Of a stretch of DNA of 33,958 bases, positions 2,997 through 21,809 are shown piece by piece (position 1 is the stretch's first letter; each line of letters begins with the position of its first letter). The notes under the pieces were generated by a model, which saw nothing but the letters and a program-made list of their open reading frames with translations, had not been told where the DNA came from and did no database searches. The position numbers and the translations under genes were made by a program. The stretch is from an uncultured Hungatella sp. GTDB lineage: Bacteria > Bacillota > Clostridia > Lachnospirales > Lachnospiraceae. The stretch is from contig CAMUJH010000044.1 in assembly GCA_947089145.1 (NCBI GenBank), positions 1 to 33,958 on the forward strand, read 5' to 3'.

Positions 2997-3135
2997 AAAA
3001 CCAGATAAGGAAATTGTCAGCAATTTAGGAAAATTGTTTGGTATGCAGATTACAGGGCGAAGCGCTTTTGGGAAAATTGACAAAAAGGAGAAAGCACCGG
3101 AAACCATGAGAATCTGAAACGGGAGGTTGAAGACT

Positions 3136-4386
3136 ATGCGGAGCAAGACAGGTAGGATATTGGGAATATGGCTGGTGCTGTGCCTGGTAACGGCAGGAGG
3201 CTCACTGACGGCGTTTGGTGCGACTAAGACGGTTACTTCCATCTCCATTCGGGTGGGAACGGATACCCAGGCGGGGGAGATGCTGAATGAGAATATTGCC
3301 ATCTATGCAAATACCACGGCCGTCCAGAACGGAACCTATGCGGCCACCAGCTCTGATAAGTATTATCTGCAGAATGCAGAGTGGATCAGCTCTACGAAAA
3401 AGGCCATGAACGTAGGGGAAGAGCCTCGGATGAAGCTTTATTTGGAAATCGAGGATGACAACTATGCGTTTCGGGGAACGTATTCTGCCGGGAATATCAG
3501 CGTGAAAGGCGGTACTTTTATGGCGGCCAGAAGAAGCTCCTCCGGAAAACTGGAGGTTACCGTAAGGCTTAACGGGATTAGGGGTTCCTACAATCCGCCT
3601 CTTGATGCCAGATGGCGGGAGGTGGGATACGGCAGGGCAGAGTGGACGGAAGAGAAGAATGAAGGCGGGACGTCAGGATATTATGATGTATACCTGATGC
3701 GGGGAAACTCTGTTGTAAAAAAGCTTGAGGATTACCAGGGAACCAGCTATAATTTCTATCCCTATATGACCCAGAAGGGAACATACAGCTATAAAGTCCG
3801 CACCGTGCCATACACAGAGGCTCAGAAAAAATACGGAAAGAAAAGCGCCTGGCTGAATTCTGACGAAGTTTATATTGATGAGGCCCATGTATCCGATGGG
3901 ACAGGGCAAGTGGATGATAACGGCCTGACCACGGGAGGCGCGGCAGAAGTGGGCTGGGTACAGTCAAGCGGTACATGGTACTACCGTTATCCGGACGGAT
4001 CTTACCAAAAAGATTCCTGGATGAAGCTGAATGACAAGTGGTACCTGTTTGACAAAGACGGAAGGATGCTTACGGGCTGGCAGACAAAAGACGGTCTTGG
4101 CTATTATCTGAAAGATGACGGGGAGATGTATAAAGGCTGGATTCGGTCAGGAGACAGCTGGTATTACTTAAACAGCGAGGCAGACGGCGTGGAGGGCGCC
4201 ATGCATATCGGATGGCTGAATAATGATGGAAGGACTTACTGTCTCGGCCAAAGCGGGGCTATGCTGGAGGGCTGGAATCAGGTGGACGGCAATTGGCATT
4301 ACTTTTACCCAGGTTCAGGCCATATGGCAGCCGATGTGATTATTGACACGTTTTATGTGGACGGCAATGGAATCTGGAAAAAATAG
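3136..4386 (+). CDS. Secreted protein with C-terminal choline/cell-wall-binding repeats
   Basis: This is a predicted exported envelope protein of 416 residues. ATG 3136 is chosen because GGGAGG (3121-3126) is 9 bases upstream; the in-frame TTG at 3127 overlaps poorly with it. Residues 1 to about 29 form a signal peptide (basic start, hydrophobic core, small residues before cleavage, LTAFGA). Residues 30-150 are a beta-rich region I do not recognise. Residues about 155-255 look fibronectin-III-like (ARWREVGYG..., YSYKVRTVPY). Residues about 275-405 hold about six repeats of the WYYxxxDGxMxxGW type (CW_binding/choline-binding family), which bind teichoic-acid choline or other wall polymers. The next gene, 48 bases on, is a shorter paralogue. 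The ligand is unknown, and no catalytic domain is visible. Confidence 0.85.
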   Translation: MRSKTGRILGIWLVLCLVTAGGSLTAFGATKTVTSISIRVGTDTQAGEMLNENIAIYANTTAVQNGTYAATSSDKYYLQNAEWISSTKKAMNVGEEPRMKLYLEIEDDNYAFRGTYSAGNISVKGGTFMAARRSSSGKLEVTVRLNGIRGSYNPPLDARWREVGYGRAEWTEEKNEGGTSGYYDVYLMRGNSVVKKLEDYQGTSYNFYPYMTQKGTYSYKVRTVPYTEAQKKYGKKSAWLNSDEVYIDEAHVSDGTGQVDDNGLTTGGAAEVGWVQSSGTWYYRYPDGSYQKDSWMKLNDKWYLFDKDGRMLTGWQTKDGLGYYLKDDGEMYKGWIRSGDSWYYLNSEADGVEGAMHIGWLNNDGRTYCLGQSGAMLEGWNQVDGNWHYFYPGSGHMAADVIIDTFYVDGNGIWKK

Positions 4387-4434
4387 GTCTGTGGGCATAC
4401 AGGCGCCATGCTTCTATAGAAAGGGGAAGCCTAA

Positions 4435-5190
4435 ATGGAGCGTAAAAAAGGATTAAGTTGGAGGCAGCGTGTCATTTTGACACTGGTTATAGGTTTGGCT
4501 GCATGGAACGGTATTACGGTTATGGCAGCTACAAGGCTGGCGGAGACAGAGGAAGCTTACTGGGATAAGAGTGAGGTAGGCATCGGCCGGTGGAAAAAAG
4601 TGGATCGCGCCAATGAATACCGGGTGCGTTTGTATGAGAGCGATGATCGCTTTGTTACAAGCTTTAGCGTGAAAGGAACCAAGGCGGATTTTCGTGAATA
4701 TATAAGAGATGGGTATGCATACCATTTTTCAGTGTGCGCAGTTCCAAAATCCGGTCAAAAGGCTTATATTTCAGGGGAATGGAAAGACTCCGAAGTTCTG
4801 GAAGCAGACGGCATAGGGGAGAACGAGGGCAGATGGAGGACTTACAGCCAGGGGAAAAAGTATCAGAGAAGCGATAAGTCTTATATTACAGGTCAGTGGG
4901 AAATGATTCAAAGCAAATGGTACTATTTTAATCAGGACGGCTATGTGCAGACTGGCTGGCAGCAGATCGATTCCAAATGGTACTATCTTGACAAGGACGG
5001 AATCATGCAGACCGGCTGGCTGGATTATCAGGGGAACTGGTACTTTCTTGACAGTGACGGAGCCAGAGCCGCAGGCTGGAAGGAAGTGAAGCCGGGAGAG
5101 TGGTATTATATGGATGGAGACGGAAAGATGCTGGCTAATACGGTGATTGATGGGTATCAGCTGGATGAGGCGGGGAGATGGATACCGTAG
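4435..5190 (+). CDS. Secreted protein with cell-wall-binding repeats (paralogue of the upstream gene)
   Basis: The 251-residue product starts at ATG 4435 after a GGGGAAG ribosome binding site. Residues 1-32 form a signal peptide with a hydrophobic core VILTLVIGLAAWNGITV and a probable MAA cleavage region. Residues about 45-125 resemble the fibronectin-III-like part of the upstream protein: Trp near the start, a YRVRLYE strand, then a YHFSVCAVP strand and the final SGEW. Residues about 145-240 hold four tandem repeats (KWYYFNQDGYVQTGW, KWYYLDKDGIMQTGW and two more diverged). It is likely co-transcribed with the upstream paralogue from the promoter at 2968. A wall-attached, non-enzymatic role is inferred. 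Confidence 0.85.
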   Translation: MERKKGLSWRQRVILTLVIGLAAWNGITVMAATRLAETEEAYWDKSEVGIGRWKKVDRANEYRVRLYESDDRFVTSFSVKGTKADFREYIRDGYAYHFSVCAVPKSGQKAYISGEWKDSEVLEADGIGENEGRWRTYSQGKKYQRSDKSYITGQWEMIQSKWYYFNQDGYVQTGWQQIDSKWYYLDKDGIMQTGWLDYQGNWYFLDSDGARAAGWKEVKPGEWYYMDGDGKMLANTVIDGYQLDEAGRWIP

Positions 5191-5369: not shown

Positions 5370-6827
5370 GTGCGGATAGGGATTTGTGACGGTGATGAGC
5401 AGGAGCTTGAACATCTTTTGGCATTGCTTAGGGAATATCAGTTAAGTCGGGGGACGAGTTTTGACTGCCGATCTTTTCATAACAGCACCGATTTTTTATG
5501 TGATATGAAAGGCGGGGAGTATGACCTTGTTCTGTTGGATGCGCATATGCCTGGAATCAGCGGGATACAGGCTGCGCAGGAACTGAGGGAGGCGGATAAA
5601 AATGTAAGAATCATTTTTATCGCTTCCTCGCCGGAGTTTGCCATGGAGAGCTATAGCGTGGGGGCGTACTACTATCTGCTTAAGCCTGCAGATGCCGGCA
5701 TGCTTTTCCCGCTGCTGGATAAAGCGGCAGGCGAAGTGTTTGTGCAGGAAGAGCAGGGGATCGTGCTGAAGAATCGGGGTGGGGTCGTTAGGATAGGGTT
5801 TGCCGAAGTTGAATATGTGGAGGTCATCAATAAAACAGTTTCTTTTCATCTGGCAGACGGCGCAATCCGCGAGGTGACTGCTGCTTTGGCGGATTTTGAG
5901 GAAAGGTTTTTATCCAGACCGGAGTTTTTTAAAACACATCGATCATATCTTGTGAATTTAAATTATATTCAGTCCATTAACATAAATGGAATTATGACAA
6001 AAAACGGACACAGCATTCCAGTATCACGGCAGCGGCGCATTCAGGTCCAGGATGCATATATGCGGTTTATGCACCAGGCAGAGACAGTCATCATGACGCA
6101 GGATGTCCCGCCGACGGTATCCTCTGAAAGGCCAAAGCGCCCTCGCGGGCCGTGGCGTATTCTGCTGGTGGACGACGAACCGGCTGAACGCACGTTTTGG
6201 GCCGATATTCTGCGGTGCCATGGCTGCATGGTGCAGTTGGCTGGAAACGGCAGGGATGCGCTGAAGCTGGCGGAGAGTGAACCTTATGACTGCGTGCTGC
6301 TGGATGTAATGATTCCAGGCGAGGACGGCTTTGCCATCTGCGAAAAAATTCGCAAAGTGGTTCAGGCGCCGGTTGTTTTCCTAAGCTGCCTTACAGAATC
6401 AGACAAGCAGCTGAAAGGATTTGCGGCTGGAGGAATCGATTATATTACCAAAGATACTCCTGCTGCGCTTTTTTGGGCAAAGGTGGAAACCCGGATAAAG
6501 CTGGCAATGTCTGATCGCACCCAGATCCGATACGGACCGCTTTTAATGGATTTAACAGGGCACAAGTTAACCATGAATGGGAAGGAACTGCCTCTTACCG
6601 CTGCTGAATTTGATATCCTGTGGCAAATGTCGGAACATGCGGATCATGTTTTTACTCTGGAGGAGATTTTTGCCATGGCCTGGGGCAGCCAGCTTTGGGA
6701 CGGGGGACAAATGGTGCAGATGCAGATGTCCCGGCTCCGAAGGAAACTGGAAAAAGCGTGGGCAGGACATCACTTTATTGAGACGGTCTGGGGACAGGGC
6801 TATCGTTTTGTTCCCATCAACAATTAG
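5370..6827 (+). CDS. Fused double response regulator: REC-LytTR-REC-winged helix
   Basis: A 485-residue cytoplasmic transcription regulator with two complete regulator modules. The start is GTG 5370, 8 bases after AGGAGG. Module 1 has a receiver at residues 1-118 (phosphoacceptor D57 in LLDAHMPG, K105) and a LytTR DNA-binding domain at about 135-236, with the hallmark THRSYLVN (H190-R191-S192). A linker of about 25 residues follows, with no internal start or ribosome binding site. Module 2 has an OmpR-type receiver at about 264-375 (acidic pair D268-D269, phosphoacceptor D312 in LLDVMIPG, K361) and a winged helix at about 388-483 ending IETVWGQGYRF. Receiver 1 is atypical: Gly8 stands where a second acidic residue is expected, and Ala85 replaces the switch Thr/Ser. 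The kinase gene follows 25 bases on. Targets are unknown. Confidence 0.9.
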   Translation: MRIGICDGDEQELEHLLALLREYQLSRGTSFDCRSFHNSTDFLCDMKGGEYDLVLLDAHMPGISGIQAAQELREADKNVRIIFIASSPEFAMESYSVGAYYYLLKPADAGMLFPLLDKAAGEVFVQEEQGIVLKNRGGVVRIGFAEVEYVEVINKTVSFHLADGAIREVTAALADFEERFLSRPEFFKTHRSYLVNLNYIQSININGIMTKNGHSIPVSRQRRIQVQDAYMRFMHQAETVIMTQDVPPTVSSERPKRPRGPWRILLVDDEPAERTFWADILRCHGCMVQLAGNGRDALKLAESEPYDCVLLDVMIPGEDGFAICEKIRKVVQAPVVFLSCLTESDKQLKGFAAGGIDYITKDTPAALFWAKVETRIKLAMSDRTQIRYGPLLMDLTGHKLTMNGKELPLTAAEFDILWQMSEHADHVFTLEEIFAMAWGSQLWDGGQMVQMQMSRLRRKLEKAWAGHHFIETVWGQGYRFVPINN

Positions 6828-6852
6828 TTCCATGGGAAAGGAGGAGGTGTCT

Positions 6853-8766
6853 GTGGAACGGCAGAAAGCCTGGCAGCAGCCTTTGGCTGTTTTCGCTGCG
6901 TTTGTGCTCTTTTTTTCTTTGCTATTTTATGGAGATAACAAATATCAGGCGCCGCCTCCCTATGGAAAGTCTGGGGTGCTGGCCCTGAATGAGGATAATC
7001 TAAGACGAAATAACCCTGTTTTTCTAATAGACGGCTGGCTGCTGACGGATGGGCGTGCTGCGGACAAGCCTACCTATATTGGCGAATTTTCTAACCTTCA
7101 GCGGGGAGATCTGTCGGTTTGGCCTCACGGACGGGCACGTTATCAGCTGACTCTGCGCTATGACGGCACGCCTCAGATCGTGGCGGTGGATTTCCCGCAG
7201 CTGTCTTCATGGTATTCCATTTCCGCAGACGGGAAAGAGCTTGCCCAGGGCATAGGCAATGGGTGGATTACATTTTTACTGACATCAGGAGATCATGTTT
7301 TGACTGTGGAAACCACGTCAAAATCAGGATATTACAGCGGGATGTATTATCCGCCGATGCTGGGGACGGTTGAGATGCTTTTACGGATGCGCAGCATCAG
7401 AAGCTTTGCCTATGCCCTGGCATTTTTTCTGCCTCTGGTCCTGGCGCTGTTTACGATTTTTCTCTGGAGGTCAGGAGGCAGCCTAAGCCGTTGGTTTGGT
7501 ATCCTGTGCTGCTGCTATGCACTCTATATATTTCGGTATTTTGTATTTCTTTTTTCAATGTCTGTGGTGCGGTACTGGTTTTTAGCAGAGAATCTGGCTC
7601 TGTACGGCCTGTGTTTCTGCATAGTGCAGCTTACCGCGCTGGCTTCTGGCGATTCCCGCGGCAAAGCGTGGCAATGGGTTCGGGGAGTACTGTCTGTGCT
7701 GCCAGTGCTGCTGATAACACTGTGCCTGATGATCCCAGTGCTGCCATGGGCGGTTTATGTCCACAGCAGGCTGACGGATAGCTACTATATAGTTACTTTT
7801 TTCTGCGCAGCTTTTTATGCCGTGAAGGGGATAAAGGGACAGAGCTGGGAGGGCAGGTATACTCTGACAGGATGCCTGGTGTTTGGCTGCAGCTTGCTGG
7901 CCAACCTGCTTTTCTCTAATTTATTTGAGCCCATCTGCTTTTTCTGGCAGTTTGAGTGGTGCGGCCTTTTCCTGGTTCTGCTGTTTGGCGCTATGATGAT
8001 TTCCCGCAGCCGCCGTCTTCTGCAGGAAAACGATGCGCTTACCAATCATCTGGAGGAACAGGTAAGAAAGCGTACAGAGGAGATTAATGGACTTTTGAAT
8101 GAGCGTAAAGCCTTCTTCTCGGATCTGGCCCATGATTTAAAGGCGCCGGTGTTTGCCACCCAGTCTTTTATAGAGGCTATCCGCAGAAGCGGAGTCGGTG
8201 TAGATACAGAATTACGGAGCTATCTTGACCAGGCAGAGGCCAAGCAGCAGGAAATGGCCCGGCGGCTTCAGGGACTGTCTACGATTCATGAGCTGGATAA
8301 AATTGAGGGGGAACGGGTTCGGATATCCGTTCAGGAGATGCTTTCGGAAATTTATGCGGCTTACCATGGGGAAGCCGAAGTGCAGGCAGTGTATTTTTTT
8401 GTGGAACCGCTGAGAGAAGAAGCGTTTTTAATGGCCCAGCCGGAAAAGATTAACATCCTTTTTGAAAACCTTATTTACAATGCGCTGAAAGCTACGCCTC
8501 GGGACGGGAACATCCACGTATCAGCCTGCATAGAGGACGGTAAAATACGCATTGTTGTGGCGGATACCGGCTGCGGCATTCCTAAAGAGGAACTGCCTTT
8601 TATTTTTAAACGATTTTATGTCGGGGCAAATAACAGAGGCAGCGGTACCGGATTGGGGCTTTATATTGTACATGGCATTGTGGCTGAACTGGGAGGTACT
8701 ATTGACGTTTGTTCTGAGGCGGATATGGGTACGAAGTTTATTATGGAGTTTCCCCAGAGCGTTTAA
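6853..8766 (+). CDS. Membrane sensor histidine kinase (HisKA type, multi-TM sensor)
   Basis: The likely partner of the fused regulator. GTG 6853 (637 residues) is chosen because AGGAGG (6842-6847) lies 5 bases upstream; ATG 6832 is in frame but lacks a ribosome binding site. One transmembrane segment lies at residues 10-27, then an extracellular beta-rich domain at about 30-170 (sugar-binding-like jelly roll by appearance only), then a cluster of about seven transmembrane segments at about 183-380. This layout resembles 7TMR-DISM sensors. A coiled linker leads to the HisKA H-box DLAHDLKAP with H427. The ATPase domain has the N-box FENLIYNALKA (N543), the G1 box DTGCGIP (D571) and the G2 box GSGTGLGLYIV. 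All catalytic boxes are intact. The signal sensed is unknown. Confidence 0.9.
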   Translation: MERQKAWQQPLAVFAAFVLFFSLLFYGDNKYQAPPPYGKSGVLALNEDNLRRNNPVFLIDGWLLTDGRAADKPTYIGEFSNLQRGDLSVWPHGRARYQLTLRYDGTPQIVAVDFPQLSSWYSISADGKELAQGIGNGWITFLLTSGDHVLTVETTSKSGYYSGMYYPPMLGTVEMLLRMRSIRSFAYALAFFLPLVLALFTIFLWRSGGSLSRWFGILCCCYALYIFRYFVFLFSMSVVRYWFLAENLALYGLCFCIVQLTALASGDSRGKAWQWVRGVLSVLPVLLITLCLMIPVLPWAVYVHSRLTDSYYIVTFFCAAFYAVKGIKGQSWEGRYTLTGCLVFGCSLLANLLFSNLFEPICFFWQFEWCGLFLVLLFGAMMISRSRRLLQENDALTNHLEEQVRKRTEEINGLLNERKAFFSDLAHDLKAPVFATQSFIEAIRRSGVGVDTELRSYLDQAEAKQQEMARRLQGLSTIHELDKIEGERVRISVQEMLSEIYAAYHGEAEVQAVYFFVEPLREEAFLMAQPEKINILFENLIYNALKATPRDGNIHVSACIEDGKIRIVVADTGCGIPKEELPFIFKRFYVGANNRGSGTGLGLYIVHGIVAELGGTIDVCSEADMGTKFIMEFPQSV

Positions 8767-8816: not shown

Positions 8817-11276
8817 TTATTTTTTAAACAGAAGCCTGCGCAGTTTATCTGCGATTTTTTTTGCCCTTTGGACGTATGGGCTGCTTATGGCTAAACAGAT
8901 GGCAGCCGCTGCTGCTATGGGAAGCAGGGGGCTGTATGTCCCTGCCTTGCTGTCAGAGGCATTTTTCTGGCCAGACATGGCTGAGGCGGCGGCCGGATGG
9001 GCTGCTACAGCAGGAGGCTCCGGTGATGCCTGGACTGCCTGACTGCCGTTTTCTGTCTCGGCAGCGGCGGCAGTTTCAGAGCTTGTTTCCTCAGGAGACG
9101 TATCTGCTGTGCCCTGGTTTTCCATGCGTGGCTGGGGGAGAGCCCTAAGTGTGCCTGCCGTAGATTCACGTTCCTGGCAGCCTTCGGTTTCCGGGCCGGA
9201 AGGTTCAGCGGCCTGTGACTCTGCTTTAGGAGTCTGAGAGAGCCTTGGAGCCTTAAACAAAGTGGAGTCTGTCCGAAATACGATTTCAAATCCGCCTGGA
9301 ACAAAATCGTTTTCCCTATGGGGCTGGCTGCCCTGGTCGGGACCTCCTGAAATATTTGCGTTTGGATTGGAGGGCTTAGGCATATTAGGGGATTCAGGCG
9401 GGGGACTGCCTGTCTGCACGGCGGTTTCAGACGTATGGGCTTTGGACTCGCTTTCCCAATAAGCCTCAGTTTCCTGGCCGGATTCTTCCTCAGGATGAAC
9501 CGGCTGGGACGTCTTTGGGGGATCAGAAAACGGGTCTTCCTGCTTGTCTGCGGGACTTAAGGCAGACTCCTGGGGCTGTGTTGGCAATTCTTCGGATTCG
9601 GCTTCTGAAGGTGCGGGAGAACCCTGGGAATCCGCAGGAAGATAAGGTCTTTGCCCTTCTTCTGTTCCGTCGCCTTTACTGCCGTTGCCGGCGTTGCCCT
9701 GGTTTCCTCCGGAGCCTTCCAGTTTTGGCAGCTGAAGCGGAATATCGTAAGTGCCGGGCCATGGGAGGATGAGCTGCCGGCCGTCGTAAACGCCGCCTTC
9801 AATTTTCAGGCCCACAAGGAAAGGGGCAGGAGTGCCTCCTGAGTTTTCAGCTTCCAGATAAGACCGATAAGGCTCCCAGTCACGGCTGATTACCAATGCG
9901 TGGCTGCTGGAGGCAGTTAAAGGCTGGGCATTGACTGCCCCCAGCAGTAAATGGGAAGGCACTTCTGACCATTTTGTATCGCCTGCGGAAAGTGAGTAGG
10001 CATGAATGGCTGCGGCGCCGGTTGGTTTCAGATCAAAGGCCATATGCAGCCCGGAGTTTTCGGCCATCAATGTTCCGGTGGGATTCTCATTTTCTGAGAT
10101 TACATTTAAAACCAGCCGGACCTCCAGATTATCCTGGCTGATCCTCGTAGGCTTATCCAATACAAAAATGCCCATTGGCGTATTCAGGACAGTATCCGCA
10201 GGGATTATCATCTCTTCGGCGGCATCAAGGATTGTCACACTATCACCGGCGGTAAGCCGGGGAAGGGTCACAGGCTTCCATGTGACCGGACAGTCGATGG
10301 TATCATCTGCGAAGAAAAGGTTCATCTTGAAAAGGTTAATTTTAATAGGGAGCGTATCCGGTAAATATGCAGCTATGTCTTTGGGAGCGGCATCTGCTCT
10401 TATGGTAAGCTGGTATCTGCCATAACGGCGGGCAGGCCACGGCCACCATTCCGTGACAGACATAGAAGAAGTGAAAGTGGCTGCGGAAGTAATCTCTTCG
10501 GGAAGCGGCTGCGGTTTTCCCCGGTCAATGCTCACTGTCTGAGATTCAAAGGCGGTTTCATCTTTGCGTATAAATCTCAGCTTCAGGTAGAAACAATCAA
10601 TGGCTTTGTCGATATAGCTTTTAAACGGTTCGGCAAAGGGTCGAAGAAAGAACTGATTCTGCATGGATTTCGGCTCATTTTCCTTGGCGGCAGGCAATTT
10701 TAGATCCAAGCCGCAGACAGTGTAGGCTTCCCCGTCTAAGGAGTACAGAAGCTGGATAGCAGCCAGATCGGAAGCGGATACGGAAAAGGTGCCGTATACA
10801 TAGTATCCCTGGCCGTCATGTTCAATGCAGGCTTTAAACTCAGGCATTTCAGCAGGAACAGGTACACCCTCCTGCCATTCTGCCCCAGAAGAAGATTCTG
10901 ACCGGGAGGCATCGGAAGATGAAGCAGTCGATTCCTCTTGTATGCCTGCCGGTTTCTGGGGGAAAGCATCAGAAGGGTAAATGTCTTCTTCTGTGCCTGC
11001 CGCCTGCTGCCGCAAAGCGTCGGAAGGTGAAGCGGCTGTTTTCTCTCCTGTGCCTGCCGGTTTCTGCCGCAGAGCGTCAGAAAGTGAAGCGGCTGTCCCT
11101 TCTTTGGTGTTCTGCGGTTTGGGAAGGAAATCGAGAGGAGACGAGACGGTAACCTTTTCTTCTATGGTTCCCGATTCCGGCGGCATTCGATCTGCTTTTA
11201 CGGTATATGCCGGAGCGATGTTTGAAATTATGGTCAGCACTGCTAACGCTGCTGCCAGTTTCTGCTGTATTTTCAT
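8817..11276 (-). CDS. Large secreted, Pro/Glu/Ser-rich surface protein with C-terminal membrane anchor
   Basis: I recognise no family for this 819-residue protein. The start is the ATG whose first base is 11276, with GGAG 9 bases upstream; an in-frame GTG at 11291 overlaps that site. Residues 1-28 form a signal peptide (MKIQQKLAAALAVLTIISNI). Residues about 67-121 hold three tandem 17-19-residue repeats beginning SDA. Residues about 140-520 are a beta-rich region, probably globular, with few cysteines and several Trp (VTEWWPWPARRYG). Residues about 525-770 are low-complexity Pro/Glu/Ser/Gly/Ala, like a wall-spanning stalk. A transmembrane helix at about 782-798 (LLPIAAAAAICLAI) is followed by a strongly basic tail (KKIADKLRRLLFKK). 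There is no LPXTG motif. It converges with the kinase gene and diverges from the second regulator. A surface sensor, adhesin or signalling partner role is only a guess. Confidence 0.8.
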   Translation of the reverse strand: MKIQQKLAAALAVLTIISNIAPAYTVKADRMPPESGTIEEKVTVSSPLDFLPKPQNTKEGTAASLSDALRQKPAGTGEKTAASPSDALRQQAAGTEEDIYPSDAFPQKPAGIQEESTASSSDASRSESSSGAEWQEGVPVPAEMPEFKACIEHDGQGYYVYGTFSVSASDLAAIQLLYSLDGEAYTVCGLDLKLPAAKENEPKSMQNQFFLRPFAEPFKSYIDKAIDCFYLKLRFIRKDETAFESQTVSIDRGKPQPLPEEITSAATFTSSMSVTEWWPWPARRYGRYQLTIRADAAPKDIAAYLPDTLPIKINLFKMNLFFADDTIDCPVTWKPVTLPRLTAGDSVTILDAAEEMIIPADTVLNTPMGIFVLDKPTRISQDNLEVRLVLNVISENENPTGTLMAENSGLHMAFDLKPTGAAAIHAYSLSAGDTKWSEVPSHLLLGAVNAQPLTASSSHALVISRDWEPYRSYLEAENSGGTPAPFLVGLKIEGGVYDGRQLILPWPGTYDIPLQLPKLEGSGGNQGNAGNGSKGDGTEEGQRPYLPADSQGSPAPSEAESEELPTQPQESALSPADKQEDPFSDPPKTSQPVHPEEESGQETEAYWESESKAHTSETAVQTGSPPPESPNMPKPSNPNANISGGPDQGSQPHRENDFVPGGFEIVFRTDSTLFKAPRLSQTPKAESQAAEPSGPETEGCQERESTAGTLRALPQPRMENQGTADTSPEETSSETAAAAETENGSQAVQASPEPPAVAAHPAAASAMSGQKNASDSKAGTYSPLLPIAAAAAICLAISSPYVQRAKKIADKLRRLLFKK
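10914..11078 (-). repeat. Tandem 51-57-bp coding repeats in the surface-protein gene
   Basis: Three in-frame units encode 19, 17 and 19 residues, each starting with Asp-Ala after Ser and containing a Q(K/Q)(P/A)AG core. The DNA marker TGCCTGCC recurs at 10943, 10994 and 11051 on the plus strand. Repeat number may vary between strains. Confidence 0.75.
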
Positions 11277-11664
11277 AAATAGGTACTCCACTTTCTATGG
11301 TCTTGGGAAGATTCTTTTATCAATTCAACTGAGATGCCGTTCACGCAGTTTCAGCTACATTTTGCACCGACATCAGTTTTTGAGGGGAAGTTATGGTATA
11401 GTATGATTTGTAGATAAAAAGATAATTAAGTAAATTATACAAAATATACTATAAAACGAATAGCACAGCCAGCTCCTTATACGATTTTACTATATTTATT
11501 TTATGTAATGGCTATTTTAGAGAATATCTTAATAGAAATCTATAGTCATGTCAAGTCTTGCCGTTATTTCCCGAAAATGAAAAACACACCCAAAAGCGGC
11601 AAAAAGTCAGAGCAGAACGCAGGAGGAGAGCTTGTGCAGGCTATGGAGAGGATATGGTTCTTTT
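11277..11664. promoter_or_regulatory. AT-rich divergent intergenic region
   Basis: This gap separates the minus-strand surface-protein gene from the plus-strand second regulator and must hold both promoters. It is much more AT-rich than its surroundings at about 11395-11545. A weak plus-strand candidate is TTGAGG (11380-11385), 16 bases, TATGAT (11402-11407). The minus strand has a TATAAT-like box around 11433-11438 without a good -35. GCCGTT and GCAGTT (11336-11350) are weak matches to half of a LytTR site. No gene of convincing size is present. Confidence 0.4.
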
Positions 11665-12402
11665 ATGATAAGGGTAGCATTTTGTGATGATGATTTGTCT
11701 GCTTTAAACGAAATTCATGTTTTGCTTAACCGATACAGTGCAAATTGCAATCGGGAAATCGCACATGATGCTTTTCACAGCTCTTTGGAGCTGCTGGCTG
11801 AGGTTGAAAAGGGGAAACGCTTTGACATAATGCTGCTGGATATTCTCATGCCGGGGGAAAACGGAATCAATACGGCGAAAGAGATTAGGCAGCATGACAA
11901 CATGGTAAAAATAATTTTTTTAACATCATCCTCAGAGTTTGCCGTAGAATCCTATGAAGTAGGTGCTTTTTTTTACCAGATAAAGCCGATTTGGGAGGAA
12001 AATTTTTTCTGCCTGATGGACTCGGCTATCTGCGAGTGCAGCAAAGAGCAGCAAAAAGGGCTGATCCTGCGCTGCAAAAGCGGGATCACGCGGATCGACC
12101 TGGACAGGCTGGAGTACTGTGAAGTGATTGGGCGTACGTTACTATTTCACATAAAAAACGGAACCATATTGGAAAGCATAGGAAGCTTGGATGAACTGTG
12201 CAGCCAGCTGGCGCAGTACGACGATTTTCTGCGTCCCCACCGCTCGTTTTTGATTAATATGAAATACGTTCAGAGCATTTCTTATAAGGCGATTATTATG
12301 GACAGCTTGGCTCAGATCCCTATACCTCATGGGAAATGTTCCGAAATCAAAAACAGGTATCTTGAGTATGCGTTTAGCAGAAGGCAGATTTTTGTGTCAT
12401 GA
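11665..12402 (+). CDS. LytTR-family response regulator
   Basis: A cytoplasmic DNA-binding response regulator of 245 residues, of the AgrA/LytR class. The receiver is at residues 1-120 with the acidic cluster C-D8-D9-D10, phosphoacceptor D59 in LLDILMPG, switch T87 and K107, all conserved. The LytTR domain is at about 138-240 with RPHRSFLIN. ATG 11665 is used because the product then begins MIRVAFCDDD as in the family. An in-frame TTG at 11632 has a better ribosome binding site (AGGAGG at 11621-11626) and would add 11 residues. It is a paralogue of the first half of the fused regulator at 5370. Its stop overlaps the next gene's ATG by 4 bases, so it should be translationally coupled to the GHKL kinase. 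Confidence 0.9.
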   Translation: MIRVAFCDDDLSALNEIHVLLNRYSANCNREIAHDAFHSSLELLAEVEKGKRFDIMLLDILMPGENGINTAKEIRQHDNMVKIIFLTSSSEFAVESYEVGAFFYQIKPIWEENFFCLMDSAICECSKEQQKGLILRCKSGITRIDLDRLEYCEVIGRTLLFHIKNGTILESIGSLDELCSQLAQYDDFLRPHRSFLINMKYVQSISYKAIIMDSLAQIPIPHGKCSEIKNRYLEYAFSRRQIFVS

Positions 12403-13667
12403 GCAGTGTCTATCTGATTAACTTTACTTCGGTAGGCATATTCGGCATGATTTTGTCCGCTGCATTCTGTGACATTGCCTGGACGCAGAAGAAGCGCAGA
12501 ATCATGGCAGGCGGGATGGCCGCCATCCTGGCATTTCAGGGGATTGTCTATTTTTTTATCGGCCCGTCTATGGCGGAGCGTTTTTATCCCATTACCACAC
12601 ATATTCCGCTGGCTTTGCTGCTTTGCGCTCTCAGAAGGAAATGGTTTTGGCCGGTGATTTCGGTTCTCACAGCATACCTATGCTGCCAGCCGCGCAGATG
12701 GGTGGCGCTTTTTACCGTGGCAGTATTGTCTGGCGGCCCTATGATGCAGAGCGTAACAGAATTGGCTGCGACGCTGCCGCTGCTGCTGCTTTTAGTGCGG
12801 TTTGCTGCCCCTGCGGTGCGATCCATTTCCCGCTATACGATATCTGTGCAGTGTCAGTTTGGCTTGATTCCCATACTCTATTATGGGTTTGACTATTTAA
12901 CACGGATCTATACCGATCTGCTGACAAAAGGTGTCCTGGCAGCAGTGGAATTTATGCCATTTGTATGCTGCATGGCATATTTAATTTTTGCACTTAGGAC
13001 TTTTGAGGCGGAACGGATGCGCAGCCAGATGGAACAGACACAGACCAGCCTGAATATCCAGATTTCCCAGGCTGTCCGGGAGATTGAAGCCCTGCGGGAA
13101 TCCCAGGAGAAGGCAAGGGCTTACCGCCATGATTTACGCCATCATATGCAATATCTTTCCTCCTGCGTTGAAAGCGGGAGATATGAACAGGCGCAGGCAT
13201 ATATTCAGGAGATTAGCTCAGAGATTGAGGCCAATAAGGTAACAAACTTCTGCGAAAATGAGGAGGTAAATCTGATATTTTCTGCCTTTGCCGGGCGGGC
13301 CCGCAGGCATGGCATTCCGATTGAAATCAAAGCTGCCGTCCCCCAGTCTGTCCCTGTATCGGAAAGTGATCTGTGTGTGCTGCTGTCCAACGCAATGGAA
13401 AATGCACTGCATGCCTGCATGAAGCAGAAAGAAAAAGGGCTGGCCGGCGGAATAGAAGTATCTGTCTATGAAAGAAAAGGGAAATTCCTTTTGCAGATTA
13501 TAAATTCCTGTGGGGAAGATGTAACTTTTGTCAAAGGAGTTCCCGTTGCGGACAATCCGGACCATGGGATTGGCGTGCGCAGCATCTGCGCCATCGTGGA
13601 AAAATACAAAGGTATCTATATGTTTCAGCTTAAAGACGACCAGTTTATTCTTCGGGTGTCCTTTTAA
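12399..13667 (+). CDS. AgrC-like GHKL sensor histidine kinase
   Basis: A 422-residue membrane kinase and the cognate partner of the LytTR regulator, whose stop codon it overlaps (ATGA). The N-terminal half (about residues 1-205) has about six hydrophobic segments, the usual sensor layout of AgrC/ComD-type peptide-sensing kinases. A coiled segment (about 210-240) leads to the dimerisation and phosphoacceptor helix YRHDLRHHMQYL with H244. The ATPase domain (about 320-422) has the GHKL N-box SNAMENALHAC and a short C-terminal glycine loop HGIGVRSI. No adjacent precursor-peptide or AgrB-like processing gene was found, so a peptide ligand is not established. Transcription probably ends at the hairpin at 13754. 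Confidence 0.9.
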   Translation: MSSVYLINFTSVGIFGMILSAAFCDIAWTQKKRRIMAGGMAAILAFQGIVYFFIGPSMAERFYPITTHIPLALLLCALRRKWFWPVISVLTAYLCCQPRRWVALFTVAVLSGGPMMQSVTELAATLPLLLLLVRFAAPAVRSISRYTISVQCQFGLIPILYYGFDYLTRIYTDLLTKGVLAAVEFMPFVCCMAYLIFALRTFEAERMRSQMEQTQTSLNIQISQAVREIEALRESQEKARAYRHDLRHHMQYLSSCVESGRYEQAQAYIQEISSEIEANKVTNFCENEEVNLIFSAFAGRARRHGIPIEIKAAVPQSVPVSESDLCVLLSNAMENALHACMKQKEKGLAGGIEVSVYERKGKFLLQIINSCGEDVTFVKGVPVADNPDHGIGVRSICAIVEKYKGIYMFQLKDDQFILRVSF

Positions 13668-13872: not shown

Positions 13873-15201
13873 ATGGGGCTTATTAAGGCAGGAATAGGTG
13901 CGCTGGGAGGTACGTTTGCGGATCAATGGAAAGAGTTTTTCTACTGCGACGCTTTGGAAAAGGACGTCATGGTGACAAAGGGAAGGAAGCGCACGACTTC
14001 TCGTTCGTCTAACACAAAAGGGAATGACAATATTATATCCAACGGCAGCGTCGTTGCCGTAGCTGACGGCCAGTGCATGATTATTGTGGAGCAGGGCAAG
14101 ATTGTGGAAGCGTGTGCAGAACCTGGGCAGTTCCGATACGACACGTCTACGGAACCCAGCATTTTTGCGGGGAATCTTGGGGCCAACATAATGGAAACCT
14201 TTAAGACCATTGGCAAGCGGTTTGCATTTGGCGGTGATACAGGCAAAGACCAGAGGGTGTATTATTTTAACACGAAGGAACTGACAGACAATAAATTCGG
14301 AACGCCGAACCCGATCCCTTTCCGGGTGGTGGATCTAAAAATCGGGCTGGATGTGGATGTATCCGTCCGCTGTTCAGGAGTCTATTCTTATAAAATTGAT
14401 AATCCCCTGTTATTTTACGCCAATGTCTGCGGAAACGTGGAGCAGGATTATATGCGGGACGAGCTGGACAGCCAGCTGAAGACGGAGTTTATCAGCGCCC
14501 TGCAGCCGGCCTTTGGCAGGCTGTCCGACCTGGAGCTGCGCCCTAATCAGATCGTATCCCACAATGCAGAGCTGGAAGATGCGATGAATGCCGCCCTTTC
14601 GAAGAAATGGGGAGAGCTGAGGGGACTGAAAATCGTCAGCATTGCCTTAGGATCAGTTACCCTGCCTCCAGAAGATGCTGAGATGATCAAACAGCTTCAG
14701 CGCACGGCTGTCCTGCAGAATCCCACCATGGCAGGGGCTGCGCTGGCAGGAGCCCAGGCGGATGCCATGAAAGCTGCGGCATCCAATTCTGCAGGTGCCA
14801 TGACAGGCTTCATGGGCATGGGAATGGCTATGAACGCGGGAGGCGGCATGAACCCTCAGGATCTGTTTGCCATGGGCCAGCAGCAGAGAGCGTCAGCCCA
14901 GCCGCAGCCGGCAAGGCGGCAGATTCAGGCCGGAAGCTGGAGATGCTCCTGCGGCGCGGCGGCATCAGGAAAGTTCTGCCCGGAATGCGGCTTGCCAAAA
15001 CCTGCAGATAACGGCGGATGGACATGTTCCTGCGGGACGGTGAATAAAGGCAGGTTCTGCCAGAACTGCGGCTTAAGGAAACCAGAGGGAGCGCCCCTTT
15101 ACCGGTGTGACAAATGCGGGTGGGAACCGGCGGATGCTGCTCATCCTCCCAAGTTCTGCCCGGAATGCGGTGACCCGTTTGACGAGAATGACAGAACATA
15201 A
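13873..15201 (+). CDS. SPFH-domain protein with C-terminal zinc ribbons (YdjI-like)
   Basis: The 442-residue product resembles the SPFH / 'virion core protein-like' family that includes B. subtilis YdjI, which acts with YdjG and YdjH at the membrane. The start is ATG 13873 after GAAGAAGGGAG. The SPFH core spans about residues 40-290. A flexible Ala/Met/Gly/Gln segment covers about 290-350 (MTGFMGMGMAMNAGGGM). The C-terminus has three Cys4-type ribbons: CSCG...CPECG, CSCG...CQNCG and CDKCG...CPECG. No signal peptide or transmembrane helix is present, so membrane association would be peripheral. The zinc-ribbon and TPM genes follow in the same direction, matching the ydj set. No PspA-like gene (B. 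subtilis ydjF) is adjacent. A terminator separates it from the next gene. Confidence 0.85.
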   Translation: MGLIKAGIGALGGTFADQWKEFFYCDALEKDVMVTKGRKRTTSRSSNTKGNDNIISNGSVVAVADGQCMIIVEQGKIVEACAEPGQFRYDTSTEPSIFAGNLGANIMETFKTIGKRFAFGGDTGKDQRVYYFNTKELTDNKFGTPNPIPFRVVDLKIGLDVDVSVRCSGVYSYKIDNPLLFYANVCGNVEQDYMRDELDSQLKTEFISALQPAFGRLSDLELRPNQIVSHNAELEDAMNAALSKKWGELRGLKIVSIALGSVTLPPEDAEMIKQLQRTAVLQNPTMAGAALAGAQADAMKAAASNSAGAMTGFMGMGMAMNAGGGMNPQDLFAMGQQQRASAQPQPARRQIQAGSWRCSCGAAASGKFCPECGLPKPADNGGWTCSCGTVNKGRFCQNCGLRKPEGAPLYRCDKCGWEPADAAHPPKFCPECGDPFDENDRT

Positions 15202-15212
15202 ACAGGAATTCC

Positions 15213-15245
15213 ATGCCGCTTTCTATAACGATAAAGCGGCATTTT
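15213..15245 (+). terminator. Terminator after the SPFH gene
   Basis: ATGCCGCTTT (15213-15222) and AAAGCGGCAT (15233-15242) form a perfect 10-bp stem, followed by TTT. The A/T-flanked stem could also work in the opposite direction. Confidence 0.75.
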
Positions 15246-15317
15246 GAATATGGAGACAGCTAAAATGTACCCTCGGAATCTCTCCGGCACCCTTCTTTGC
15301 GGCTGATTTTCCGTCAT

Positions 15318-15374
15318 ATGCACATAAATTTAATCAACGTACGTTCCACGTACGCCTCATAAATTTATGTGCAT
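15318..15374. repeat. 57-base nested palindrome upstream of the zinc-ribbon gene
   Basis: The outer arms (15318-15332 and 15360-15374, beginning ATGCACATAAA) are perfect over 15 bp. A symmetric 5 x 5 internal loop follows, then a perfect inner stem CGTACGT (15338-15344) with ACGTACG (15348-15354) around loop TCC. It lies 79 bases before the zinc-ribbon ATG. There is no T tract, so it is not a classic terminator. It could be a processed RNA hairpin, a protein-binding site or a miniature mobile element. Confidence 0.75.
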
Positions 15375-15452
15375 CTGACAAAGAATCATCTCACAAAATC
15401 AGGGACAGAGAGACTTCGAGAGCGCATTAAAGAAAAGCGGAGGAGGAGCCGG

Positions 15453-16538
15453 ATGGCGGCAATGCAAGAATATAAATGTCCGTGCTGCGGCGGTGCGATT
15501 GCCTTTGACAGCAGGATACAAAAGATGAAATGTCCTTTCTGTGATACGGAATTTGAGATGGACACGCTGGCAGGCTATGACAGCCAGTTAAGAAATGATC
15601 AGGCGGATAATATGATCTGGGAGACTGACAGAGGGGAAGAGTGGCAGGATGAAGAGGTAGCAGGACTCCGTTCTTACGCCTGCCGCTCCTGCGGCGGCGA
15701 AATCATATGCGATGAAAATACGGCAGCAACTTCCTGCCCTTTCTGCGGAAATCCCGTGGTAATGAAGAGGCAGGTTTCCGGTATGCTGAGGCCGGATTAT
15801 GTGATCCCGTTCCAACTGGATAGAAAGGCTGCCAAGGCTGCCCTTAAGAAACATTATGAGGGAAAGCGCCTGCTCCCTCAGATATTTAAAGATCAAAACC
15901 ATATTAACGAAGTGAAAGGCGTTTATGTTCCTTTCTGGCTGTTTGATACCAGCGCAGACGTACATATGCGGTATAGGGCGACGAAAATGCGGACATGGAG
16001 CGACAGCCGGTACGATTACACGGAAACCAGCTTTTTCTCCGTAAGCAGAGGAGGAACCATAGGATTCGAGACAGTTCCCGTTGACGGCTCCGGGAAGATG
16101 CCGGATGATCTGATGGAGTCTCTGGAACCATTTGACATTTCAAAGGCAGTGGATTTTCAGACCGGATATCTGGCCGGGTATTTGGCGGACAGGTACGATG
16201 TAGACGCCGGACAGAGCGCCATGCGGGCTAATGAACGAATCAGAAAAAGCGCAGAGGAAGCTTTTGCGGCAACAGTCAGAGGCTACGGGACTGTAACGAA
16301 GGAGGCAGGCAGCATTCAATTAAACAGCAAAAAGGTAACATACGCCCTTTTTCCTGTCTGGATTTTGAATACCACGTGGGAAGGCAAAAACTATCTTTTT
16401 GCCATGAACGGCCAGACCGGAAAGATGGTGGGAGATCTTCCTCTTGATAAGGCTGCATATCGGAGATGGCTGTTTGGCCTGACAGGCACAATAGGCGCAG
16501 CCATATTTGCAGTTTTTGTTCTGCTTTGGCTGCTGTAG
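15453..16538 (+). CDS. Zinc-ribbon membrane protein (TFIIB-type ribbon, YdjG-like)
   Basis: A 361-residue protein with two N-terminal Cys4 zinc ribbons: CPCCG...CPFC at residues about 9-31 and CRSCG...CPFCG at about 71-95. A middle region of about 230 residues follows with no motif I know, and a single C-terminal transmembrane segment (FGLTGTIGAAIFAVFVLLWLL) ends the protein. The start is ATG 15453 because AGGAGGAG (15441-15448) is just upstream; the frame extends back to 15369 through the palindrome but without a ribosome binding site. This architecture matches B. subtilis YdjG-type proteins, and the next gene (12 bases on) encodes the YdjH-like TPM protein. The trio probably forms a membrane-associated complex; that is inferred from the Bacillus neighbours. 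Confidence 0.85.
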   Translation: MAAMQEYKCPCCGGAIAFDSRIQKMKCPFCDTEFEMDTLAGYDSQLRNDQADNMIWETDRGEEWQDEEVAGLRSYACRSCGGEIICDENTAATSCPFCGNPVVMKRQVSGMLRPDYVIPFQLDRKAAKAALKKHYEGKRLLPQIFKDQNHINEVKGVYVPFWLFDTSADVHMRYRATKMRTWSDSRYDYTETSFFSVSRGGTIGFETVPVDGSGKMPDDLMESLEPFDISKAVDFQTGYLAGYLADRYDVDAGQSAMRANERIRKSAEEAFAATVRGYGTVTKEAGSIQLNSKKVTYALFPVWILNTTWEGKNYLFAMNGQTGKMVGDLPLDKAAYRRWLFGLTGTIGAAIFAVFVLLWLL

Positions 16539-16550
16539 GGAGGTAGGATA

Positions 16551-17369
16551 ATGAAAAAGAGAGCATTTGCCATATGTTTTGCGCTGCTTGTATGGGCCCT
16601 TTTTGCATATTCCGCATACGCCGCAGGCGGAATGCCAAGACTTGTGGACTGGGCGGAACTGCTTTCCGACAGCGATGCAGAGGAACTGCTGGATAAACTG
16701 AATGAAATCAGCGAAAGACAGCAGACTGATATCGTAGTGGTTACGGTCAATTCCCTTGAAGGGAAGTCTGCCATGGAATATGCGGACGATTTCTATGACA
16801 ATAACGGATATGGCTACGGGGACGGAAGAGACGGGATACTTTTTCTCATAAGCATGGAAGAGAGAGACTGGCACATATCAACAGCAGGTTACGGAATCAC
16901 GGCGGTTACGGACGCAGGGCTGGAATACATGTCTGAGGCGTTTATGGATTATTTAAGCGGAGGGGACTATTATGCCGCATTTATTACCTTTGCGGAACTA
17001 TGTGATGATTACATAACCCAGGCAATGACAGGCGAGCCCTATGATGCGGACAATCTTCCGGAAGAGCCATTTGATATCATATGGACTATTATAACCGCAT
17101 TAGGAATAGGCTTTATCATATCGCTGATTGTGACGGGGATCATGAAAGGCGAGCTTAAATCCGTGGGAAGACAGATAAGGGCGGATGATTATATTAAGAA
17201 AGGAAGCATGCGGCTGTCGGAAAACAGCGATCTATTTCTTTACAGGCATGTTGAACGCAGGGAGAAGCCCAAGGAGAACAATTCAGACAGGCAGAGCCCC
17301 CAAGGAGGCTCCTCAACCCATACGTCGTCTTCCGGCGCGACCCACGGCGGAGGCGGAGGAAAATTTTAA
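16551..17369 (+). CDS. TPM-domain membrane protein (YdjH-like)
   Basis: A 272-residue exported protein. Residues 1-25 form a signal peptide (MKKRAFAICFALLVWALFAYSAYA). The TPM domain (formerly DUF477) spans about residues 28-155, with the characteristic LVDWAELLSDSDAEELLDKL, TDIVVVTVNSL and a GDGRDGILFLISMEERDWHISTAGYG-like central strand. TPM domains are linked to phosphatase activity in plants and to membrane quality control in bacteria; activity here is untested. A transmembrane helix at about 182-204 anchors it, followed by a cytosolic basic segment and a Ser/Gly tail ending GGGGGKF, typical of the family. It lies 12 bases after the zinc-ribbon gene and is followed by a strong terminator, so it ends this operon. 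Confidence 0.85.
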   Translation: MKKRAFAICFALLVWALFAYSAYAAGGMPRLVDWAELLSDSDAEELLDKLNEISERQQTDIVVVTVNSLEGKSAMEYADDFYDNNGYGYGDGRDGILFLISMEERDWHISTAGYGITAVTDAGLEYMSEAFMDYLSGGDYYAAFITFAELCDDYITQAMTGEPYDADNLPEEPFDIIWTIITALGIGFIISLIVTGIMKGELKSVGRQIRADDYIKKGSMRLSENSDLFLYRHVERREKPKENNSDRQSPQGGSSTHTSSSGATHGGGGGKF

Positions 17370-20246: not shown

Positions 20247-20273
20247 AAGGGGAGAAGCTTTGAAAGGAGACTT

Positions 20274-21809
20274 ATGAAAAGAGTAAAAATGGTTCTTGCC
20301 TATGATGGAACGAATTACTGCGGGTGGCAGCTGCAGACCAATGGCATCACCATAGAAGAGGTGCTGAACAAAACGCTTTCAGAACTTCTTAGGGAGCCTG
20401 TGACAGTCATAGGAGCCAGCAGGACAGATTCCGGGGTTCATGCAGAGGGAAACGTGGCGGTATTTGATACAGAGAACCGGATGCCGGCGGATAAGATCTG
20501 TTTTGCATTGAACCAAAGGCTTCCTGAGGACATCCGGGTTCTTTCTTCAGAGGAGGTGCCTTTGGACTGGCATCCCAGAAAACAGAATTGTGTTAAGACT
20601 TATGAGTACCGGATTCTGAACCGAAAAATTGACATGCCTACTCTGCGGCTGTATTCCCACTTCTGTTATTTCCCTTTAAATGAGCACCAAATGAGGAAAG
20701 CTGCCTCGTACCTGATGGGAGAGCACGATTTTAAAAGTTTTTGTACGGTCAGAGGGCAGGCCGAAGATACGGTACGCACCATCTACAGGACTGACGTGGT
20801 GAGAGAGCATGATATGATCACCATCCGGATCAGGGGAAGCGGCTTCCTTTATAACATGGTGCGGATCATTGCTGGCACGCTGATGAAAGTGGGCATGGGG
20901 GTATACCCGCCGGATCATATAAAAGAGATTCTGGCTGCCAGAAACCGGAAGGCGGCAGGTCCCACGGCTCCGGCCAGAGGGCTGACCCTTATGAACCTGG
21001 AGTATGAGACAGAGCTGAAGGAAAAGATTACCGGGAACAATGAGGACTGGGAATATCAGCTGATTCAGACGGAGATACCGGAAAAAAAGAAGGCGTACCT
21101 GTTCATCAAGCGGTGCAGGGGAGAAGACTTTGACAGGCTTCTTACCCGGGTAACCCATCAGGCTGTCAGGAACGGGGCCAGACAGGTGTATGTATGTGAC
21201 AAGGAGGACGACAGCCGGATCATTCCCGGAAAGGCTTATGGATATTACACATTTTCTCATGGATATGACATGCTGGCCATGCGGAAAAGGATCCTTTTCG
21301 GAAATCCTGAAAACCATGGAGAAACAGACGCCAAGGAAAAGGGGGAACCAGGTGATGTTTTCCAGGCAGTGTGGGAGAAGGTAAGCATCTGGCAGGCTTC
21401 CCTGTTTTGCCGGATTTACAATGAGATTTTCTATATGGTTCCTAACTCCGCCACGCTGACGGAGCAGGAAGCCCGGGAGTATCTGGTCAGCAGCAGATGG
21501 CAGCTGTTTCTCATAAAAATCAGGGAAAAGGCAGTAGGGTTTGTAATACTGGTCGAAAAGGATGAGGAGCTGGAGATAGACAGCCTTGGAGTCCTTAAAG
21601 AATACAGAGGCCGGGGGCTGGCCAGAGAAATACTGAGGAGGGCGGAGATGACGGCGGCACAGATGGGAATGAAAAGTTTGTTTTTAACCGTGTCCAGCAT
21701 TAACACGGCGGCGGTTTCCCTGTATACAGACACAGGGTTTCAAAATGAAGGAATGATTTCCAGATGGTATGTGGCGGAAAGCGGAAGTGATGACGAGGAA
21801 CTGAAGTAG
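20274..21809 (+). CDS. truA: TruA tRNA pseudouridine synthase fused to a GNAT acetyltransferase domain
   Basis: Residues 1-245 are a complete TruA, the enzyme that makes pseudouridine at tRNA positions 38-40. The catalytic Asp is D52 in GASRTDSGVHAEG, and the domain ends with the family-typical ARGLTLMNLEYE. The frame continues for 266 residues. Residues about 250-350 are an alpha/beta region I do not recognise, and about 370-511 form a GNAT domain with motif A LEIDSLGVLKEYRGRGLAREIL (acetyl-CoA loop R445-G446-R447-G448-L449-A450) and the C-terminal SLYTDTGF strand. Stand-alone TruA is about 245-260 residues. The start is ATG 20274 with GAAAGGAG upstream. The ecf-truA order is conserved in Clostridia. 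The acetyl acceptor is unknown. Confidence 0.9.
   Translation: MKRVKMVLAYDGTNYCGWQLQTNGITIEEVLNKTLSELLREPVTVIGASRTDSGVHAEGNVAVFDTENRMPADKICFALNQRLPEDIRVLSSEEVPLDWHPRKQNCVKTYEYRILNRKIDMPTLRLYSHFCYFPLNEHQMRKAASYLMGEHDFKSFCTVRGQAEDTVRTIYRTDVVREHDMITIRIRGSGFLYNMVRIIAGTLMKVGMGVYPPDHIKEILAARNRKAAGPTAPARGLTLMNLEYETELKEKITGNNEDWEYQLIQTEIPEKKKAYLFIKRCRGEDFDRLLTRVTHQAVRNGARQVYVCDKEDDSRIIPGKAYGYYTFSHGYDMLAMRKRILFGNPENHGETDAKEKGEPGDVFQAVWEKVSIWQASLFCRIYNEIFYMVPNSATLTEQEAREYLVSSRWQLFLIKIREKAVGFVILVEKDEELEIDSLGVLKEYRGRGLAREILRRAEMTAAQMGMKSLFLTVSSINTAAVSLYTDTGFQNEGMISRWYVAESGSDDEELK

Follow-up and report, generated by a model that had tools for sequence, protein, structure and literature searches.

A conserved Lachnospiraceae fusion of an AgrA-type and an OmpR-type response regulator, and a candidate operator in its neighborhood

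Response regulators are normally seen as one receiver joined to one output. In a 33,958-nucleotide stretch of DNA from an uncultured Hungatella sp. (contig CAMUJH010000044.1; hereafter the window), an initial annotation reported a single frame holding two receivers and two DNA-binding domains of different kinds, which raises the questions of whether such a protein is real, how it arose, and how two regulators might act as one.

5370..6827, + strand: FUS, the fused response regulator, identified from a 485-aa open frame, Pfam domains, relatives and predicted structure

The reported frame was confirmed. FUS (5370-6827) runs uninterrupted for 485 codons from a GTG start, with an AGGAGG ending 8 bases 5' of it, and Pfam placed its domains in the order REC, LytTR, REC and Trans_reg_C, each family scoring above its gathering score (LytTR, residues 139-227; Response_reg in two stretches, the best at 264-365; Trans_reg_C, 404-480). 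In an AlphaFold2 model, the domains were folded (mean pLDDT 80.5) and the linker was of low confidence (237-259), with uncertainty as to how the domains are placed relative to one another (pTM 0.43). The linker had been described as free of both an internal start and a ribosome binding site. No clear ribosome binding site or Shine-Dalgarno sequence was seen by eye before Met242, but the former statement was inexact, given that an in-frame ATG is present at 6093-6095; among the other 39 aligned proteins, this Met242 is shared by L045 only.

We scanned 84,980 species genomes, which gave 44 loci; after L073 (29% identity) and L074 (27%) were dropped, FUS proteins were retained at 42 loci with best-segment identities of 61-71%, mostly in Lachnospiraceae metagenome assemblies. 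Twenty-eight are complete four-domain frames, 11 are without receiver 1, one has a frame change (L053) and two are cut by contig ends. Protein alignments leave out L053, whose frame change lies in receiver 1, together with the two cut copies (L067 and L072), and comprise 40 proteins: 29 complete, the window's included, and 11 short. Response_reg, LytTR and Trans_reg_C were all matched by 29/29 complete proteins. The fusion is rare and patchy. At E <= 1e-70, FUS was encoded by 4 of 397 genomes of the window's family (own genome counted), by 1 of 26 genomes of its genus, namely its own, and by 3/8 and 4/16 genomes of two other genera (short forms counted). Among 392 genomes sampled across the order, two carried FUS, the own genome and G377, both from the window's family, and FUS was not found outside that family.

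With the whole domain order repeated in 28 additional complete proteins, the fusion goes beyond chance; it is real and conserved, not a sequencing error. The annotation had argued that these are not two genes joined by error and that a real family should show the same order in related genomes, and both expectations were borne out. In favor of an artefact, whether of assembly or by frameshift, that merged two genes, one may point to the metagenomic origin of most relatives' assemblies, but an identical, unbroken order at 28 further loci, at 61-71% identity, makes such an artefact so improbable that it was rejected. Separate genes or a frameshift in relatives, the signs that would point to such an error, were seen in part, in G402 (described below) and in L053 (1/42), and elsewhere the fusion stands. 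No published account of a REC-LytTR-REC-winged helix architecture was found among the matches listed from excerpts of the open-licence literature, and the accessible portions of PMC8895600 and PMC4618731 do not describe it; although built from familiar parts, the architecture is apparently undescribed.

Both halves of FUS can be placed in known classes. Residues 262-482 form a complete REC-winged helix regulator adjoining a histidine kinase gene, like OmpR/PhoB-type regulators: the acidic pair, phospho-Asp, Ser/Thr and Lys of receiver 2 (D268, D269, D312, S339 and K361) are invariant in 40/40 aligned proteins, and a C-terminal winged helix (PF00486) is present in 29/29 complete proteins, the group scanned for it. 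Unlike OmpR/PhoB-type regulators, which have a single DNA-binding domain, FUS carries an N-terminal LytTR domain (139-227) besides its winged helix and so represents a variant of the class rather than an ordinary member. Residues 1-235 match AgrA/LytR/ComE-type regulators in domain content, REC followed by LytTR (PF04397), in the window and 28 others (the receiver being absent in 11 loci), and the LytTR motif FxRxHRS, taken from the accessible part of PMC4227749, appears in FUS as FFKTHRS at 186-192. Regulators of that type, however, are separate proteins, whereas FUS adds a second regulator and its receiver 1 can be missing. The separate genes nearest to the REC-LytTR half in 99 relatives' genomes were 39-43% identical to it, and none of the best 25 NCBIfam models scored above cut-off for FUS. 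By its domain composition, FUS is an OmpR/PhoB-type response regulator with a whole AgrA-type (REC-LytTR) regulator fused at its N-terminus.

The fusion has a recurrent genomic neighborhood, which in the window comprises the following genes.

6832..8766, + strand: histidine kinase, presumed FUS partner; HATPase_c above cut-off, HisKA just below
8817..11291, - strand: SURF, a Ser/Pro-rich surface-type protein; likely ATG at 11276, conserved core at about 145-555
11665..12402, + strand: LytTR2, a response regulator (REC-LytTR) in a gene of its own; likely start ATG at 11665
12399..13667, + strand: GHKL histidine kinase (HATPase_c_5 in Pfam), presumed LytTR2 partner

The histidine kinase gene lies directly 3' of FUS at every locus whose flank extends that far. 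A FUS-type kinase was encoded in 5 of 397 family genomes (E <= 1e-100), its upstream neighbor being FUS in four, the window included, and an unfused OmpR-type regulator in one (G402). SURF, convergent to FUS and the kinase, occurs in 32 of 36 relatives with flank past the kinase; it is a truncated remnant in L051 and absent in L049. By eye, the protein has a signal-peptide-like start and a C-terminal hydrophobic segment, and it had no match in Pfam or NCBIfam. Beyond SURF, LytTR2 is found in 26 of the 30 relatives that have the 47-bp block described below, and the flanks extend to the GHKL kinase in only four relatives (L045, L049, L056 and L068). LytTR2 of L042 (11113-11454) begins at about residue 130-140, its receiver seemingly lost, as is receiver 1 of FUS elsewhere. 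A different LytTR gene replaces LytTR2 in L060, L062 and L064. It precedes SURF and shares its orientation in L060 and L062, and lies upstream of FUS and divergent from it in L064; a GHKL kinase accompanies it in L060 and L064. These three genomes yielded no LytTR2 (E <= 1e-50).

Two unfused relatives suggest how the fusion came about. In G402, the one genome of this kind and estimated to be 7% contaminated, the OmpR-type regulator is a separate 241-codon frame with 44% identity to FUS 262-482; the kinase (51-53%) and SURF (28%) come after it, and LytTR2-GHKL (61% and 55%) is oriented divergently from it. In a tree with 9 other OmpR-type regulators, the G402 regulator, on a long branch, united with the C-terminal halves of 13 FUS proteins (support 100/99). 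In G270, a gene divergent from LytTR2 codes for a LytTR regulator on its own, with 40% identity to FUS 1-240. The simplest reading of these two genomes is that a LytTR regulator and an OmpR-type regulator met beside LytTR2-GHKL and then fused. An origin of the N-terminal half as a duplicate of LytTR2 was not supported: in a tree of 13 of the 29 complete FUS proteins, with some long branches, this half fell outside the LytTR2 group (98/93).

While the key residues of receiver 2 are unchanged, receiver 1 is missing at 11/42 loci, the rest of FUS and the kinase being kept in all 11, and its phospho-Asp, D57, is replaced in 3/29 complete proteins (by N in L048 and L071, by H in L052). A remnant of the receiver 1 start runs directly into the LytTR region in 8/11 short proteins (e.g., MRIVTCDAEQG in L061), and the short forms read as in-frame internal deletions of receiver 1. 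On a tree of the shared part they need 4 changes (3-4 in bootstraps). No more than 1 is forced by the starred branches, however, and placing all receiver 1-less proteins in one clade was not rejected (p-AU 0.067); receiver 1 appears to have been lost in at least one lineage, and probably in several. The LytTR domain is kept in 40/40 aligned proteins, also where receiver 1 is gone, with H190, R191, Y193, N196, S219, R220 and R222 invariant throughout. FUS can dispense with receiver 1, though most carriers retain it, and its mean identity where present (67.8%, level with 63.4% for LytTR; 71.9% for receiver 2 and 73.4% for the winged helix) speaks for a function. These values were computed for REC1 at about 1-118, LytTR at about 133-235, REC2 at 262-372 and the winged helix at 391-482, with the linker at 236-261. 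Since receiver 1 is dispensable while the key residues of receiver 2 do not change, we suggest that FUS is one phospho-switch carrying two DNA readers.

The annotation had also offered the integration of two phosphorelay inputs. Spelled out, a GHKL-type kinase would phosphorylate receiver 1 and the HisKA kinase receiver 2, as in an AND/OR gate. Such an arrangement would be in keeping with the GHKL kinase gene in the window's locus, with the retention of D57 in 26/29 and K105 in 28/29 complete proteins, and with a receiver 1 as conserved as LytTR. It is weakened by the 11 loci at which receiver 1 is absent and the remaining FUS and kinase persist, and by LytTR2 still standing beside receiver 1-less FUS in L055, L057, L058, L059 and L069; with D57 gone in three more proteins, it is tenable for those species only in which receiver 1 is intact, and we regard it as unlikely. 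Further down the scale stands the idea that the LytTR half is a decaying passenger on an ordinary OmpR-type regulator. The loss of receiver 1 at 11 loci, the broken L053 copy and a LytTR conservation below that of the OmpR half (63.4% vs. 72-73%) would all agree with decay, but the domain persists in every aligned protein with several motif residues invariant, even without receiver 1, and a passenger role strikes us as highly improbable. A single phospho-switch with two DNA readers is the reading we carry forward.

A candidate target for such a protein is a conserved block in the SURF-LytTR2 intergenic region; at the FUS promoter itself, no conserved block was seen by eye except promoter-like hexamers.

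11334..11380, + strand: conserved block of 47 bp, a proposed operator with consensus tTaCc.TTCgCGCAGTTTc.g.taCaTTT.gC.C.g..g.cGgTTTT
11336..11344, + strand: LytTR-like direct repeat 1, nine bases chosen by eye; family consensus ACCGTTCGC, window GCCGTTCAC
11357..11365, + strand: LytTR-like direct repeat 2, at a start-to-start distance of 21 bp from repeat 1; family consensus ACATTTCGC, window ACATTTTGC
11374..11402, + strand: proposed rightward promoter, facing LytTR2-GHKL; cAGTTT in the -35 position at 11374-11379, 17 bp, extended -10 TGgTATAGT with its hexamer at 11397-11402
11526..11554, - strand: proposed SURF promoter; TTGACA at 11554-11549, 17 bp, TAAGAT at 11531-11526; transcription from here would run across the 47-bp block

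The block was found at 31 loci (the window and 30 relatives), the second-best score being far lower at each; the available sequence of L035, L036, L037, L040, L052, L053 and L064 does not cover the region, and L072 shows neither SURF nor block. Of the 31 sites, 27 went into a model, and in leave-out scoring, which for L063 and L065 also dropped the nearest relative, these 27 sites scored 37.7-68.5, against -3.0 or less elsewhere in the same loci. L051 has a weak block (score 29.8) beside its SURF remnant. Information averaged 1.29 bits per column within the block vs. 0.16-0.40 in the flanks, which were aligned ungapped, so that indels lower the latter figure. The own genome contains one exact site; one further match, on C32 (3 mismatches, score 5.6), was taken as chance. 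Within the block, the best repeat spacing was 21 bp, its score being equalled by 0/1000 column shuffles at the same offset and by 19/1000 over all offsets of 8-36, and the best-matching nine columns at the 21-bp offset were TTCGCGCAG and TTCGCACCG. The LytTR-like units ACCGTTCGC and ACATTTCGC, read by eye, leave 12 bp between them and 8 bp before the place of the -35, and the spacer between the repeats, GCAGTTT (columns 17-23), is among the most conserved bases of the block. With promoters taken as the best matches picked by script, the cGgTTT-like end of the block lies 17-19 bp before the best -10 match, facing LytTR2, in 25/31 loci, and the best SURF-facing match has an exact TTGACA in 24/31, L049 among them though it is without SURF. 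We infer that the block is likely an operator, bound by a regulator.

LytTR repeats are nine bases long, and LytTR Regulatory Systems (LRS) consist of a LytTR regulator and a membrane inhibitor and are not known to include a kinase. With histidine kinase genes adjoining both regulators, the present locus differs from LRS so defined. In the accessible part of a paper on LRS, the direct repeats are mostly 12 bp apart and lie 4-11 bp upstream of the regulator's own -35 (PMC6193735). The block resembles that arrangement in that its repeats, 12 bp apart, closely precede the -35 of an extended -10 promoter, but differs in that the spacer between the repeats is conserved as well.

Which regulator would use the block depends on where it occurs. 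It was absent from all four LytTR2 loci without FUS that were examined (G047, G236, G402 and G270; best scores -5.9 to -14.3); G402 is without it although the other genes of the locus are present, and the LytTR2 of G270 is merely 50% identical. It was kept in L063 and L065, in whose genomes no LytTR2 was found (E <= 1e-50; these are metagenome assemblies and can be incomplete), with the lowest leave-out scores of the 27 (39.7 and 37.7, respectively), which could be decay following the loss of LytTR2. The block was missing in L031, L060, L062 and L066, FUS loci with SURF and its upstream region; since no LytTR2 was found in these four genomes either (E <= 1e-50), the occurrence of the block follows both LytTR2 and FUS. 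It might instead be a LytTR2 autoregulatory site unrelated to FUS, whose DNA-binding domains would act elsewhere. The position of the repeats relative to the -35 is that described for LRS in the portion of PMC6193735 noted above, LytTR2 adjoins the block in 26/30 relatives, and the four FUS loci from LytTR2-less genomes have no block. Against this stand the lack of the block in the four FUS-free LytTR2 loci (one with the divergent LytTR2 of G270), its presence, in weaker form, in L063 and L065, and the high conservation of the spacer bases. Autoregulation by LytTR2 alone is possible but doubtful, and the evidence leans toward participation of FUS at the block, alone or with LytTR2.

For FUS as a single phospho-switch, we propose the following mechanism. 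The adjacent kinase would phosphorylate Asp312 in receiver 2, whereupon the OmpR half would dimerize. With FUS as a dimer, the 47-bp block would serve as a single composite site for both LytTR domains and both winged helices. The LytTR pair would occupy the repeats 21 bp apart, while the winged helix may read the conserved spacer or a flank, the OmpR side being a guess. Bound FUS would activate the rightward promoter of the LytTR2/GHKL pair, because its -35 region coincides with the end of the site, and would hinder SURF transcription, because the SURF leader would cross the site; receiver 1 may serve as a secondary modulator. We give the proposal as a whole, comprising the fusion history, the adjacent kinase and one composite site controlling LytTR2/GHKL and SURF, a probability of about 0.5. 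Its most specific element is put forward tentatively, with the odds somewhat against it: that the 47 bp are one composite operator, onto which a pair of LytTR domains and a pair of winged helices are both brought by a single phosphorylation of the OmpR half. The annotation's suggestion that two kinds of promoter element could be bound at once is supported as a possibility.

In FUS, two complete regulators of different families have been fused, with both DNA readers kept and one receiver lost in at least one lineage. If the composite-operator reading is true, specificity would arise from the two fused readers acting on a single site. Naturally trimmed forms, a relative without the fusion and a single conserved candidate operator make this an unusually clean case, and open the question of how a protein with two DNA-binding domains acquires and employs composite specificity.

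Other genes of the window were noted in passing. Between rplQ and FUS (3127-5190), two neighboring genes encode proteins with cell wall repeats of the choline-binding type, for which no match was listed in the relatives' flanks examined. An SPFH gene follows LytTR2-GHKL, with a TPM-domain gene further on (13873-17366), and in the fusion-free loci L095 (by Pfam), L096 and L097 (both by eye), LytTR2-GHKL lies near LemA-like genes; a link of LytTR2-GHKL to membrane stress, from such neighbors, is a guess. At 20247-21806, one frame matches both a tRNA pseudouridine synthase (PF01416) and a GNAT acetyltransferase (PF00583), an apparent fusion, and a 970-codon frame at 21858-24767 has many TPR repeats and, at its N-terminus, a weak match to DnaJ that falls short of the cut-off.
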